Source of the DNA: Cytophagales bacterium
GTDB lineage: Bacteria; Bacteroidota; Bacteroidia; Cytophagales; Spirosomataceae
DNA: 64,000 bases
Direction: 5' to 3'
Assembly (NCBI GenBank): GCA_013298215.1
Contig: JAAFKE010000001.1
Span: forward strand, 10,692-74,691
The notes beneath the pieces were generated by a model. That model did no database searches and was not told where the DNA came from. It saw only the letters and a program-made list of their open reading frames with translations. Position 1 is the stretch's first letter; the number at the start of each line of letters is the position of its first letter. Position numbers and translations under genes: made by a program. Positions 1 to 10,669 of this stretch are shown piece after piece.

Positions 1-160
1 ACCCGTACAGACAGGGCATGCCCTGTCTAATAAACCCGTACAGACAGGGCATGCCCTGTCTAATAAACCCGTACAGACAGGGCATGCCCTGTCTAATAAA
101 CCCGTACAGACAGGGCATGCCCTGTCTAATAAACCCGTACAGACAGGGCATGCCCTGTCT
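1..160. repeat. 33-bp tandem repeat array built on a palindrome
   Basis: Five head-to-tail copies of a 33-bp unit start at 1, 34, 67, 100 and 133; the last is cut after 28 bp, and the array may continue left of the window. Each unit contains a perfect 20-bp palindrome (9-28 in the first copy; half-site AGACAGGGCA) preceded by GTAC. The same palindrome, with longer arms, lies inside hsdS at 843-870. The four complete copies look identical. The frame that starts at position 2 is open through the whole array and runs into the hsdS ATG at 191, reading PVQTGHALSNK per unit. Confidence 0.97.
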
Positions 161-190
161 CTACCCACAACAATAAAACAAAAATATTAT

Positions 191-1654
191 ATGATGAATA
201 ACCTACAACCCTACCCAAAATACAAACCGTCGGGCATCGCGTGGCTCGGCGATATTCCGCTGCATTGGGAAGTGAAACGAATTAAATATGTCTTTCAAGA
301 ACAAGATAAAAGAAGCGAAACAGGTTTAGAAAACTTATTGTCTGTGTCTCATTACACTGGTGTAACTCTCAAATCTGATAGAATTACAGAGGGAGAACTA
401 ATGACTAACGCAACTACATTAGTTGGGTACAAAATTGTTGAAGAAGGAGATTTAATAATAAATATTATGCTTGCATGGAATGGGAGTTTAGGAATATCAA
501 AATATCACGGCATAACAAGTCCCGCCTATTGTGTTTATAAATCTTTGATTGGTGGCGAAAAATATTTTGGGTATTTATTCAGAACTAAAAATGCTCAACA
601 AGAATTTAAAAAACAATCAACAGGCATAATTGATAGTAGGTTAAGGTTATATTCAGATAATTTTTTTGATATTAAGACCATTATTCCCACCCTCCCCGAA
701 CAAACCGCCATCGCCACCTTCCTCGATTACAAAACCGCCAAAATTGACCGTTTTATTGCCAAGAAAAAGCAATTGATAAAACTCTTAAACGAGCAAAAAG
801 CGGGGATAATTAATGATGCCGTTACCAAAGGCGTGTCATACGGTAGAGACAGGGCATGCCCTGTCTCTACAACAACAACAAAACCATCTGGCATTGAATG
901 GCTGGGCGATATTCCAGAACATTGGGAGGTGAGGAAATTAAAGTATGTTATAAATGGAAAATTAAAATATGGTGCAAATGAGCCAGGAGGCGACTTGCAA
1001 CCAAATGACCCAAGATATATTAGAATAACAGATTTTGATAAATCTGGTTTTTTAAGAAATGATACTTTTTGTTCTTTAAAAGCCGCGTTAGCAGAACCAT
1101 ATTTACTTAAAAATGGTGATATTCTATTTGCAAGAAGCGGTGCTACCGTTGGAAAGACATTTCAATTTAAAAATTATAATGGAGATGCGTGTTATGCTGG
1201 ATATTTGATAAAAGCTGAACCAAATGAGAGTATAGTGTTGAGTGATTATATTTTTCAATATACTTGTTCTGGTATATATGATAAGTGGAAAGGTTTTATT
1301 TTTAATAAAGCAACTATTGAAAATATTGGAGCAGATAAGTACTGTGACTTACCAATAATACTTCCCCCCCTTTCCGAACAAACCGCCATCGTGGCCCACA
1401 TCGAAGCCGAAACGGCCATCATCAATAAAACCATTGCGACGATAGAAAAAGAAATTGTTTTGGTGCAAGAATACAAAACGGCATTGATTGCCGAGGCGGT
1501 AACGGGCAAAATAGATGTGCGAGAATATGAAATTGATAAAATAGACGCAGAAACATTGCACACAATGTCTGAATATGAAAATGAATTGGAAGAAGAAATG
1601 AGTTTGGCGGCAGAGGACGAAGCAGATTATAACAACCAAGAAATAGACAAATGA
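191..1654 (+). CDS. hsdS: Type I restriction-modification specificity subunit S
   Basis: HsdS recognises the bipartite DNA target and docks the HsdM and HsdR subunits. The 487-residue protein shows the usual two-fold repeat. Two target recognition domains each begin with a PSGIxWLGDIPxHWEV motif (about residues 14-29 and 233-248). Each is followed by a conserved helical spacer that begins LPEQTAIA or LSEQTAIV. The ATG at 191 gives the expected short N-terminus before the first motif, but no clear ribosome binding site precedes it and the frame stays open to the window edge. It overlaps hsdR by 4 bp (ATGA), so the two are co-translated. hsdM is not in the window and is probably upstream. A palindromic element sits in the linker between the two halves (residues 218-227) and a degenerate one near the C-terminus. 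Confidence 0.95.
   Translation: MMNNLQPYPKYKPSGIAWLGDIPLHWEVKRIKYVFQEQDKRSETGLENLLSVSHYTGVTLKSDRITEGELMTNATTLVGYKIVEEGDLIINIMLAWNGSLGISKYHGITSPAYCVYKSLIGGEKYFGYLFRTKNAQQEFKKQSTGIIDSRLRLYSDNFFDIKTIIPTLPEQTAIATFLDYKTAKIDRFIAKKKQLIKLLNEQKAGIINDAVTKGVSYGRDRACPVSTTTTKPSGIEWLGDIPEHWEVRKLKYVINGKLKYGANEPGGDLQPNDPRYIRITDFDKSGFLRNDTFCSLKAALAEPYLLKNGDILFARSGATVGKTFQFKNYNGDACYAGYLIKAEPNESIVLSDYIFQYTCSGIYDKWKGFIFNKATIENIGADKYCDLPIILPPLSEQTAIVAHIEAETAIINKTIATIEKEIVLVQEYKTALIAEAVTGKIDVREYEIDKIDAETLHTMSEYENELEEEMSLAAEDEADYNNQEIDK
843..870. repeat. 28-bp palindromic element in the hsdS linker
   Basis: Perfect 28-bp palindrome with outer arms GTAGAGAC and GTCTCTAC and core AGGGCATGCCCT. It is translated in frame as GRDRACPVST between the first coiled-coil spacer and the second recognition domain of HsdS. 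It is the only coding copy here that is not read in the GTA-first frame. It is the same palindrome as in the 1-160 array. Confidence 0.95.
1547..1574. repeat. Degenerate palindromic element near the hsdS 3' end
   Basis: The segment reads GAAACATTGCACACAATGTCTG in the middle with decayed outer arms. It aligns with the core variant ATTGCA/GCAAT seen in hsdR at 3949-3976 and is read in the same frame (peptide AETLHTMSEY). The resemblance of ETLHTMS to ETLHAMS in HsdR supports common origin, but the copy is short and eroded. Confidence 0.55.
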
Positions 1655-4600
1655 ACCAGCAAACCGACACCACCGAAAAAGGCTTAGAAGCCCACATTGC
1701 GCACTATTTGGTTGAGGAGAACCATTTTTTGCTGCGCGAAAACAAGGCTTATGACAATGTGGCCTGTTTGGATACCGCCTTGCTGTTTGAGTTTTTAGAA
1801 ACGACCCAGCCCAAAGCCGTCGCCAAACTTAAAGTACACCACAAAGACCTTTACGAGCAAAAAATAATCAAACGCCTCAACGACCAAATACAGGCCAAAG
1901 GCATCATTGAAGTGTTGCGCAAAGGCATTACAGACGGCTTTACCGACACCAAATTGGAAGTATTTTATGATAAGCCCGTTTCGGCATATAATACAACCAA
2001 CAAAGCAAATTACGATGCCAATTTGTTTTCGGTGATGCGTCAGGTGTATTTTTCGGCTTCAACAAAGCAATCTTTGGACATGATGATTTTCATCAATGGC
2101 ATTCCCGTGATGTCATTTGAGTTGAAAAATGAATTGACCAAACAAAACGTCCACCACGCCATCAAGCAATACAAAGAAGACAGAGACCCCAACGAGGAAC
2201 TGTTTCGTTTGGGCAGATTAATGGTCAATTTTGCGGTGGACACCGAAGAAGTTTGGATGTGTACACAACTCAAAAAAGATAACTCCTATTTTTTGCCATT
2301 CAACAAAGGCAACCACAACGGGGCGGGAAATCCAGCGAATGAGGGCATCAAGACCGATTATTTGTGGAAGGAGATTTTGACAAAAGCAAGCCTAACCGAT
2401 TTGGTTCAAAACTTTTGCACCTATCTAAAAGCAGAAAAGAAACTCATTTTTCCTCGTTATCATCAGTTGCTTGCAGTCCGCAATCTTTTGGCCGATGCCC
2501 AAGCCAAAGGTTCGGGGCAAAAATATTTGATTCAACATTCGGCAGGTTCGGGCAAATCAAATTCCATAGCTTGGTTGGCGCATCAGTTGGTTGGTTTGCA
2601 CGATAAAACGGGCAAAGACAATATTTTTGACACCATCATTGTAGTAACCGACCGCAGGGTTTTAGATGTTCAAATCAGAAACAACATCAAGCAGTTTCAG
2701 CAAGTAAATGGGGTGGTTGAAGCCATAACCGAAGGAAGTAAACAACTCAAAGAAGCACTGGAAGAAGGCAAGAAAATCATCATCACCACCATTCAAAAGT
2801 TCCCGCACATCGTTGAGGAAATTGGCGAATTGCCATCAGCAAACTTTGCCATTATCATTGACGAAGCCCACAGCAGCCTAAGCGGACAAATGGCGCGGAA
2901 ATTAAACGAGGCATTATCGGTGGTGGTAGAGACGGGGCGTGCCCAGTCTCTACACGCCCCGTCTCTGGAAGACGATGAAATAGAAACCGAAGACAACGAC
3001 ACGATTACGGGCGAAGACTTGATAACCAACTTGATTAAATCAAGAAAATTGCTGCCAAATGCCAGTTACTTTGCATTTACGGCAACCCCAAAAAACAAAA
3101 CCTTGGAACTGTTTGGCGTTCCGCATACGGTAGAGACGTTGCATGCAACGTCTCTACACGACGCAACGTCTCTACGCGCAACGTCTTTTCGTGCCTTTCA
3201 TCTATATTCAATGAAACAAGCCATTGAAGAGGGCTTTATCATGGACGTTTTGCAGAATTACACCACCTACCAAAGCTACTACGCGCTCCTCAAAAACATT
3301 GAAGACGACCCAGAATACGATAAAAAGAAAGCACAAAAAAAATTAAAAGCATACGTCGAAAGCCACGACCACGCCATAAAAAAGAAAGCCATGTTAATGA
3401 TTGAGCATTTTATGGAAAATGTAATTCGTAAAAAACGCGTGGGCGGTTTGGCAAAGGCCATGTTGGTAACAAGTAGCCGAGCCAACGCCGTGCAATACAA
3501 AAAAGCCTTTGACGATTATTTGCATAAAATCAACAGTCCATACAAAGCAATCGTGGCTTTTTCGGGCGAAATAGACGGACAAACCGAAGCCAACTTAAAT
3601 GGGTTTTCGAGCAATTCAATCCCTTCGGAATTTGAGAAAAACGAGTATCGTTTTTTATTGGTGGCCAATAAATTTCAGACGGGTTTTGACCAACCGCTTT
3701 TGCACACGATGTACGTGGACAAAAAACTGGGCGGTGTCAATGCCGTTCAAACGCTATCCCGACTGAACCGAAGCCACCCCTTAAAGAAAGATACCTTTGT
3801 TTTGGACTTTGCCAACACAGCCGAGGAAATTTCAATGGCTTTTGCCCCCTATTTTGAAAGTACGATTCTGGCCGAAGCCACCGACCCAAATAAATTGTTT
3901 GACTTGCAAGATGCGTTGGATAATTTTCAGGTATATACCAGAGAACAGTTAGAGACATTGCACGCAATGTCTTTACCCGAGATGCACGCATCATTAGACA
4001 GGTCATCAGCAATTTTTAGAAATGATTTAACCGAAGAACAACAAACAGATTTTCGCGCAAAGGTTAAAACCTACGTGCGGTTATACATTTTCCTTTCGCA
4101 GATTGTGCCTTTCGAGAATCCGTATTTAGAAAGGCTCTACATTTTCTTGAACCATTTGCAAAACAAATTGGGCGGCGAAACGTCGGAGGATTTAGCCAAA
4201 GGTATTTTAGACAATATCAATATGGACAGTTACCGTTTGCAACTGGAAGCCACCACTAATATTGCAATGGAGCAAGGTCAGGATTTAAAGCCGATGCCAA
4301 CCGAAATGCGCGGCGGAAACAGTGAAGCCGAAATTGATAGACTTTCCAGTATATTGCAAACATTCAATGACCGTTTTGGCACTCAGTTTGAAAATGCCGA
4401 TAAAGTGCGACAAATGGTTGAAAACATAGCGCAAGACGTTGCAAAAAATGAAGAACTACTGAATTCAATTAAATATTCGGACGATCAAAACGCGCGAATA
4501 ACCAACGATAAAATCGCTCAACAAGAGTTGTTGAAACACGTGACCACCAATTTTGATTTTTACAAAGTAATTACCGACAACAAAGAGGCTAAAGAAGATT

Positions 4601-4674
4601 TTAACGCTATGTTATTTGGCATGGTGAAAGAAATATTTAACAAAGGACTCAACAGCGGAAATCACGCTAAATAG
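1651..4674 (+). CDS. hsdR: Type I restriction enzyme motor/endonuclease subunit R
   Basis: HsdR translocates unmethylated DNA using ATP and cleaves it. The 1007-residue protein has an N-terminal PD-(D/E)xK-type nuclease (D143, E157-L-K159), a Walker A loop AGSGKS (298-303), a DEAH box (404-407), motif III TATP (477-480) and motif VI QTLSRLNR (from 700), followed by a helical C-terminal region. It overlaps hsdS by 4 bp. Three palindromic elements are translated as part of the protein, at about residues 426-439, 494-513 and 767-776. They lie outside the motifs above, in the interval between DEAH and motif III, just after the TATP segment, and in the C-terminal part, so the catalytic core looks intact. 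The AT-rich composition fits an acquired locus. Confidence 0.96.
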   Translation: MNQQTDTTEKGLEAHIAHYLVEENHFLLRENKAYDNVACLDTALLFEFLETTQPKAVAKLKVHHKDLYEQKIIKRLNDQIQAKGIIEVLRKGITDGFTDTKLEVFYDKPVSAYNTTNKANYDANLFSVMRQVYFSASTKQSLDMMIFINGIPVMSFELKNELTKQNVHHAIKQYKEDRDPNEELFRLGRLMVNFAVDTEEVWMCTQLKKDNSYFLPFNKGNHNGAGNPANEGIKTDYLWKEILTKASLTDLVQNFCTYLKAEKKLIFPRYHQLLAVRNLLADAQAKGSGQKYLIQHSAGSGKSNSIAWLAHQLVGLHDKTGKDNIFDTIIVVTDRRVLDVQIRNNIKQFQQVNGVVEAITEGSKQLKEALEEGKKIIITTIQKFPHIVEEIGELPSANFAIIIDEAHSSLSGQMARKLNEALSVVVETGRAQSLHAPSLEDDEIETEDNDTITGEDLITNLIKSRKLLPNASYFAFTATPKNKTLELFGVPHTVETLHATSLHDATSLRATSFRAFHLYSMKQAIEEGFIMDVLQNYTTYQSYYALLKNIEDDPEYDKKKAQKKLKAYVESHDHAIKKKAMLMIEHFMENVIRKKRVGGLAKAMLVTSSRANAVQYKKAFDDYLHKINSPYKAIVAFSGEIDGQTEANLNGFSSNSIPSEFEKNEYRFLLVANKFQTGFDQPLLHTMYVDKKLGGVNAVQTLSRLNRSHPLKKDTFVLDFANTAEEISMAFAPYFESTILAEATDPNKLFDLQDALDNFQVYTREQLETLHAMSLPEMHASLDRSSAIFRNDLTEEQQTDFRAKVKTYVRLYIFLSQIVPFENPYLERLYIFLNHLQNKLGGETSEDLAKGILDNINMDSYRLQLEATTNIAMEQGQDLKPMPTEMRGGNSEAEIDRLSSILQTFNDRFGTQFENADKVRQMVENIAQDVAKNEELLNSIKYSDDQNARITNDKIAQQELLKHVTTNFDFYKVITDNKEAKEDFNAMLFGMVKEIFNKGLNSGNHAK
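2926..2966. repeat. Palindromic element plus half copy inside hsdR
   Basis: A 28-bp near-palindrome at 2926-2953 has perfect outer arms GTAGAGAC and GTCTCTAC and core GGGGCGTGCCCA. It is followed directly by a half unit ending in GTCTCT (2954-2966). Translated in frame as VETGRAQSLH then APSL, between the DEAH box and motif III of HsdR. Confidence 0.9.
3130..3189. repeat. Palindromic element with two extra half copies inside hsdR
   Basis: A perfect 28-bp palindrome (arms GTAGAGAC/GTCTCTAC, core GTTGCATGCAAC) at 3130-3157 is followed by two right-half copies, each containing GCAACGTCT (3158-3175 and 3176-3189). In frame it adds VETLHATSLH, DATSLR and ATSF. It sits between the ELFGVPHT and RAFHLYSMKQA segments of HsdR. 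Confidence 0.95.
3949..3976. repeat. Mildly degenerate palindromic element inside hsdR
   Basis: A 28-bp segment with slightly decayed arms (TTAGAGAC and GTCTTTAC) and core ATTGCACGCAAT. It is in the same reading frame as the two copies upstream and translates to LETLHAMSLP at residues 767-776. Confidence 0.85.

Positions 4675-8704: not shown

Positions 8705-10669
<1,965 letters not shown>

Follow-up and report, generated by a model that had tools for sequence, protein, structure and literature searches.

The type I restriction operon analyzed here, from a Cytophagales bacterium, carries members of a single palindrome family in all four of its genes and in a tandem array, and the RAYT-like gene embedded in it is likely the cognate transposase of these repeats. 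The family is confined to this operon in the host genome and dispersed in related genomes, and RAYTs recur in restriction operons across the order. The window is a 64,000-nucleotide stretch of contig JAAFKE010000001.1 (positions 10,692 to 74,691), and window positions are obtained by subtracting 10691 from contig positions. Features to its left are given by their position in locus L027 (G000:C1:1-16700), which spans the whole operon.

The operon is already under way where the window starts. Its order is hsdM, RAYT, array, hsdS, hsdR, with every gene on the plus strand. hsdM lies at L027:8041-9921 and the RAYT-like gene at L027:9918-10523, some 170 bp to the left of the window; hsdS, encoding a specificity subunit of 487 aa, occupies window 191..1654 (L027:10882-12345), and hsdR, encoding a restriction subunit of 1007 aa, occupies window 1651..4674 (L027:12342-15365), both with intact frames. 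The three hsd genes were assigned by Pfam and NCBIfam matches, and their N6_Mtase, Methylase_S, HSDR_N, and SWI2_SNF2 domains (Pfam) identify a type I restriction-modification operon. The hsdM stop and the RAYT start overlap by 4 bp, and the RAYT gene is translationally coupled between hsdM and hsdS.

The palindrome has the form GTAGAGAC-N12-GTCTCTAC, with GTAG/CTAC at both ends, and a pattern search found five matches in the window where 0.05 were expected. In hsdS, a copy with exact arms and core AGGGCATGCCCT (window 843..870; L027:11534) reads in frame as RDRACPVST within the linker joining both target-recognition halves, and an eroded copy with core ATTGCACACAAT (window 1547..1574; L027:12238) reads in frame as ETLHTMS near the C terminus, agreeing by eye at 22/28 positions with the hsdR 3949-type copy. 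Three sites lie in hsdR. Site 1 (window 2926..2953; L027:13617; core GGGGCGTGCCCA, arms exact) falls in the interval from the DEAH motif to the next helicase motif and is followed immediately 3′ by an extra half copy, ACGCCCCGTCTCT, seen on the plus strand at 2954..2966 by sequence inspection. Site 2 (window 3130..3157; L027:13821; core GTTGCATGCAAC, arms exact) follows TATPKN..LELFG and is trailed by two more plus-strand half copies of the GCAACGTCTCTAC type at 3158..3189, which TRF reports as a period-18 array (L027:13836-13877). Site 3 (window 3949..3976; L027:14640; core ATTGCACGCAAT, two arm mismatches) lies in the variable C-terminal part of HsdR, where about 15 homologue residues have been replaced rather than added to. 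All of these full, eroded, and half copies had been described in an earlier note on this DNA, which was also right that the hsdR insertions avoid the ATPase motifs, as judged from homologues, and that four of the five coding copies in the window are read GTA first, the exception being the copy at 843.

That note had placed the family nowhere else in the window, which proved wrong: a plus-strand tandem array of the same palindrome, with a 33-bp unit comprising core and arms, fills window positions 1 to 164 with five copies. TRF and pattern searches extend the array leftward beyond the window, to L027:10553-10855 in full, with an assembly gap of 10 Ns inside it; its final copy (window 137-164; L027:10828) has one arm mismatch. 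The unit equals 11 codons, and the array ends 27 bp upstream of the hsdS start. Array length could differ among strains and influence hsdS expression. Pattern searching left of the window revealed identical copies in hsdM (L027:9671-9698), in an open frame, and in the RAYT gene (L027:10227-10254), in frame as VETGHALSL at residues 104 to 112. Every coding copy in the operon is in an open frame, and one core, AGGGCATGCCCT, is present at four sites: hsdM, the RAYT gene, the array, and hsdS.

All copies of the operon's family in the host genome lie within about 5 kb (C1:9671-14667). We found no further copy with up to two arm mismatches across the 3.55 Mb of this genome, and allowing three added three matches, all nonpalindromic and each with three mismatches. 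Exact copies do occur in 17 of 59 related genomes, with 36 in G038, or roughly one per 100 kb. By the refuting condition set in the earlier note, the element does not count as dispersed in the host, where a single operon contains the family; among relatives the family is dispersed.

Comparison with homologous operons gave a partial history of the insertions. In G056, from a different family of the same order, hsdM, hsdS, and hsdR abut one another (HsdM 79% and HsdR 73% identical), and this operon lacks a RAYT, as well as any REP at the matching hsd positions, including that of the eroded copy near the HsdS C terminus. The G008 hsdR (80% identical) lacks sites 2 and 3, so that site 2 is empty in both homologues, and carries GTAAAGACAAGGCATGCCTTGTCTCAAC at exactly the place of site 1; this is the sole match with up to two arm mismatches in the G008 genome. 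At site 1 the host and G008 differ at 7 of 28 bases (21/28 the same), and their hsdR DNA is 77% identical overall, a similarity in divergence that points to a repeat that was inherited and then drifted. HsdM, HsdS, and HsdR homologues are mostly without REP segments, and the insertion points in HsdR and HsdS coincide with places where homologues vary in length. In L095, another RAYT-bearing operon, a REP and a half copy lie in frame in hsdM.

The cores are fully or nearly self-complementary, as had been claimed, and they covary across genomes: among 48 copies with 43 distinct cores, picked by their arms alone, 242 of 288 core pairs were Watson-Crick, against a maximum of 160 in 2000 shuffles. 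We rejected the further idea that cores had been compensated in place within this operon, because the only site shared with G008 has diverged about as fast as the hsdR gene around it; the different cores are best read, from these comparisons, as separate repeat lineages. The suspected frame bias likewise needs no special cause. A perfect palindrome is identical on its two strands and necessarily has TAG in one of its three frames, which leaves two usable frames and makes additional frame selection unnecessary. Of 99 REP copies in viral contigs, 35 lay within long open frames, never in the TAG frame, and the other 64 lay outside such frames.

A search for a RAYT near the palindromes, as the earlier note had proposed, led to the gene just left of the window. 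It matches the NCBIfam model REP_Tyr_transpos (NF047646) at an E value of 2e-19 in two stretches around an insert, scoring 69.9 bits, below the curated cutoff of 80; eight other RAYTs embedded in restriction-modification (RM) operons scored 57 to 75 bits, all below the same cutoff. It has no Pfam match. The low score and the missing Pfam match probably arise because the insert splits the domain. The protein also matches PDB 4er8 (E. coli TnpAREP). Its motifs occur in the order NHVH (82), the in-frame REP peptide (104 to 112), WQ (163), and YIINNP (184), corresponding to the NH[IFV]H, WQ, YIxNNP series of subclass 2.4, with an in-frame REP between HuH and Y. The gene is also flanked on both sides by REPs less than 1 kb away, at L027:9671-9698 and in the array at L027:10553-10855. 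By these sequence features, we classify the palindromes as double-foot REPs, which accompany RAYT/TnpAREP transposases of subclass 2.4.

TnpAREP proteins of subclass 2.4 and their double-foot REPs have been reported in Bacteroidetes, with in-frame insertions in their own transposase genes (PMC6006769). The present system shares with them the GTAG/CTAC ends, the hairpin, NHVH, WQ, and YIxNNP, the REP within the transposase gene, REPs within 1 kb, and a Bacteroidota host. It differs in the setting of the gene, which is embedded in a type I restriction operon and coupled within it, and in the distribution of the REPs, which also occupy hsdM, hsdS, and hsdR in frame and are absent from the rest of the genome; restriction goes unmentioned in the main text of that report. 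The intragenic GTAG REPs of PMC3733652 are similar in being GTAG-tagged palindromes, single or grouped, within coding genes, many of them for DNA processing, but those families are mostly genome-wide, unlike the operon-confined REPs here, and the survey placed GTAG repeats outside Bacteroidetes, in other phyla, and is silent on restriction genes. The parallel drawn by the earlier note with Rickettsia palindromic elements is apt for behavior, since both are short palindromes inserted in frame where protein linkers tolerate them. Membership in that group was rejected: its elements end in CGTC (PMC3733652), and here there is no CGTC tag, GTAG/CTAC stands at both ends, and a RAYT accompanies the repeats. 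The broader proposal of a mobile-type palindromic element inserted in frame is well supported. The element itself is of a known kind, and its operon-resident setting is new.

To determine how often RAYTs reside in restriction operons, we surveyed 241 genomes of the order. The RAYT query (E value of 1e-10 or better) matched 84 of them at 113 loci, and the same genomes held 167 HSDR_N loci. At least 10 of the 113 RAYT loci were within 5 kb of HSDR_N, compared to 0.15 to 0.19 expected from hsdR density and an assumed 1.0 to 1.3 Gb of total sequence (P ~1e-14). Counted from the other side, at least 10 of 167 hsdR loci have a RAYT within 5 kb, and most restriction operons have none. When flanks were examined for 116 RAYT loci, pooled from the order sample and a sample of relatives, about 18 shared an operon with hsd or related methylase genes, all co-directionally and often with gaps of -4 to +6 bp to the neighboring gene; at L119, L202, and L205 the methylase is of another type. 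Among immediate co-directional neighbors, the commonest Pfam domains were Methylase_S (7/61) and N6_Mtase (5) upstream and HSDR_N (8/62) downstream. The host genome has a RAYT at both of its hsdR loci, L027 and L091. In this second type I operon (L091; G000:C8:13001-33000) the RAYT lies at 10017-10538 between hsdS and hsdR, and no palindrome of the L027 family was found there.

RAYTs embedded in RM operons retained intact motifs more often than others (14/16 versus 53/98; P = 0.013). They were also more often coupled to a neighbor (12/16 versus 8/92; P = 6e-8), a contrast that is partly circular, as the way embedding was judged feeds into the coupling figure. On a tree of 95 RAYTs, built from our own hits only, 13 changes are required to account for the RM labels, of which 8 or more are forced by well-supported branches, and a single origin for RM-linked RAYTs was rejected on this basis. 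Searches further afield returned one relative in genome contigs, a close RAYT followed by hsdM in a Bacteroidales MAG (L088), and three distant RAYTs on plasmids, of which the one inspected was not near restriction genes. A phylum-level search of the wider family gave a weaker, same-strand association among the matches listed (G475, G540, and G299; by eye). In three related genomes (L096, L129, and L130) a RAYT sits tightly between genes of 431 and 452 aa, indicating that coupled insertion in operons extends beyond restriction genes. At L145:9368-10646, two tandem RAYT genes lie directly 3′ of a long methylase gene, each with its own GTAG(G/A)GGC-type REP. RAYT domains also occur within open frames of 1147 and 1288 codons (G506:C53:1341-1658 and G310:C1:142098-142427), possible fusions to a larger protein. 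We found no report of a RAYT-restriction operon association in the literature searched, mostly open-access papers, and the recurrent pairing seems previously undescribed.

We consider it probable, judging from sequence comparisons, that the REPs are double-foot elements of the operon-resident RAYT, an HUH-Y1 single-strand transposase. These repeats would have spread near its gene. The RAYT would nick REP hairpins exposed as single strands and rejoin them mainly close to its own gene. Copies landing in the TAG-reading frame or in rigid protein parts would be purged, so that the survivors would be open-frame copies in linkers, and the half copies and the 33-bp array may have grown by slippage. 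The RAYT presumably has no mobility of its own and would be carried between genomes by a horizontally spread, selectively kept restriction operon, which could account both for the recurrence of RAYTs there and for their staying intact. Clean insertion fits unevenly, since hsdR site 3 replaces sequence. Moreover, local spread, import of an already loaded operon, and gene conversion between copies would each be expected to yield the same picture.

An operon imported whole from a REP-rich genome with genome-wide copies, with no movement here and no local part for the RAYT, is unlikely on balance but a serious contender. Relatives such as G038 could supply such a source, with their 36 exact copies, transfer of restriction operons is known, and several core types coexist in the operon. 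However, G038 averages about one exact copy in every 100 kb, so a 5-kb stretch holding seven separate sites and an array would still be strongly clustered. The core is the same at the four AGGGCATGCCCT sites around the RAYT, and G008, with one site in common, also lacks any other copy at up to two arm mismatches. The possibility that no element exists, and that the segments are chance low-complexity or conserved HsdR/HsdS sequence, is close to negligible. The window would be expected to hold 0.05 matches, HsdM, HsdS, and HsdR homologues mostly lack the segments, and the same 28-mer is present in many genomes, mostly outside long frames; the insertion-free homologous operon already refutes this reading.

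We regard as quite improbable a working role for the RAYT within the restriction system, such as reshaping hsdS via border REPs or acting on DNA that the restriction complex has opened. REPs do lie at all three borders of the hsdS halves here, and such a role might also produce what was seen in many lineages, namely RAYTs that recur in restriction operons, run in the same direction, are coupled, and are more often intact than other RAYTs. Site-specific recombinases adjoining hsdS are known in pneumococci (PMC11709252); those PsrA-type phase-variable loci likewise link a DNA-processing enzyme to a type I locus, but theirs is an invertase acting on hsdS genes, whereas here we find an HUH transposase, one hsdS, and no silent cassettes. 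No silent hsdS cassettes were seen near the RAYT-bearing operons examined, and a shufflon was rejected because no locus showed more than one hsdS. The C-terminal hsdS REP is eroded and has a different core, most restriction operons manage without a RAYT (one lies within 5 kb of at least 10 of the 167 hsdR loci), RAYTs are coupled in a few other operons too, and PADLOC returned nothing beyond one marginal match (E value of 0.0093).

Other accessory genes are known in type I loci. A reading of RAYTs as genuine accessory genes of restriction operons, whose HUH nuclease and REPs act on incoming single-stranded DNA, hsdS, or the operon itself and are retained for their use in defense, strikes us as rather doubtful; a defense role is possible, and no observation requires one. 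How RAYTs function and spread without mobility of their own is the question that their recurring restriction-operon home addresses, and it offers an answer that is concrete and can be tested: RAYTs hitchhike on a mobile defense system or serve it. An operon with REPs in every gene, alongside a homologous operon free of them at the corresponding hsd sites, provides a clean case for watching REP insertion.
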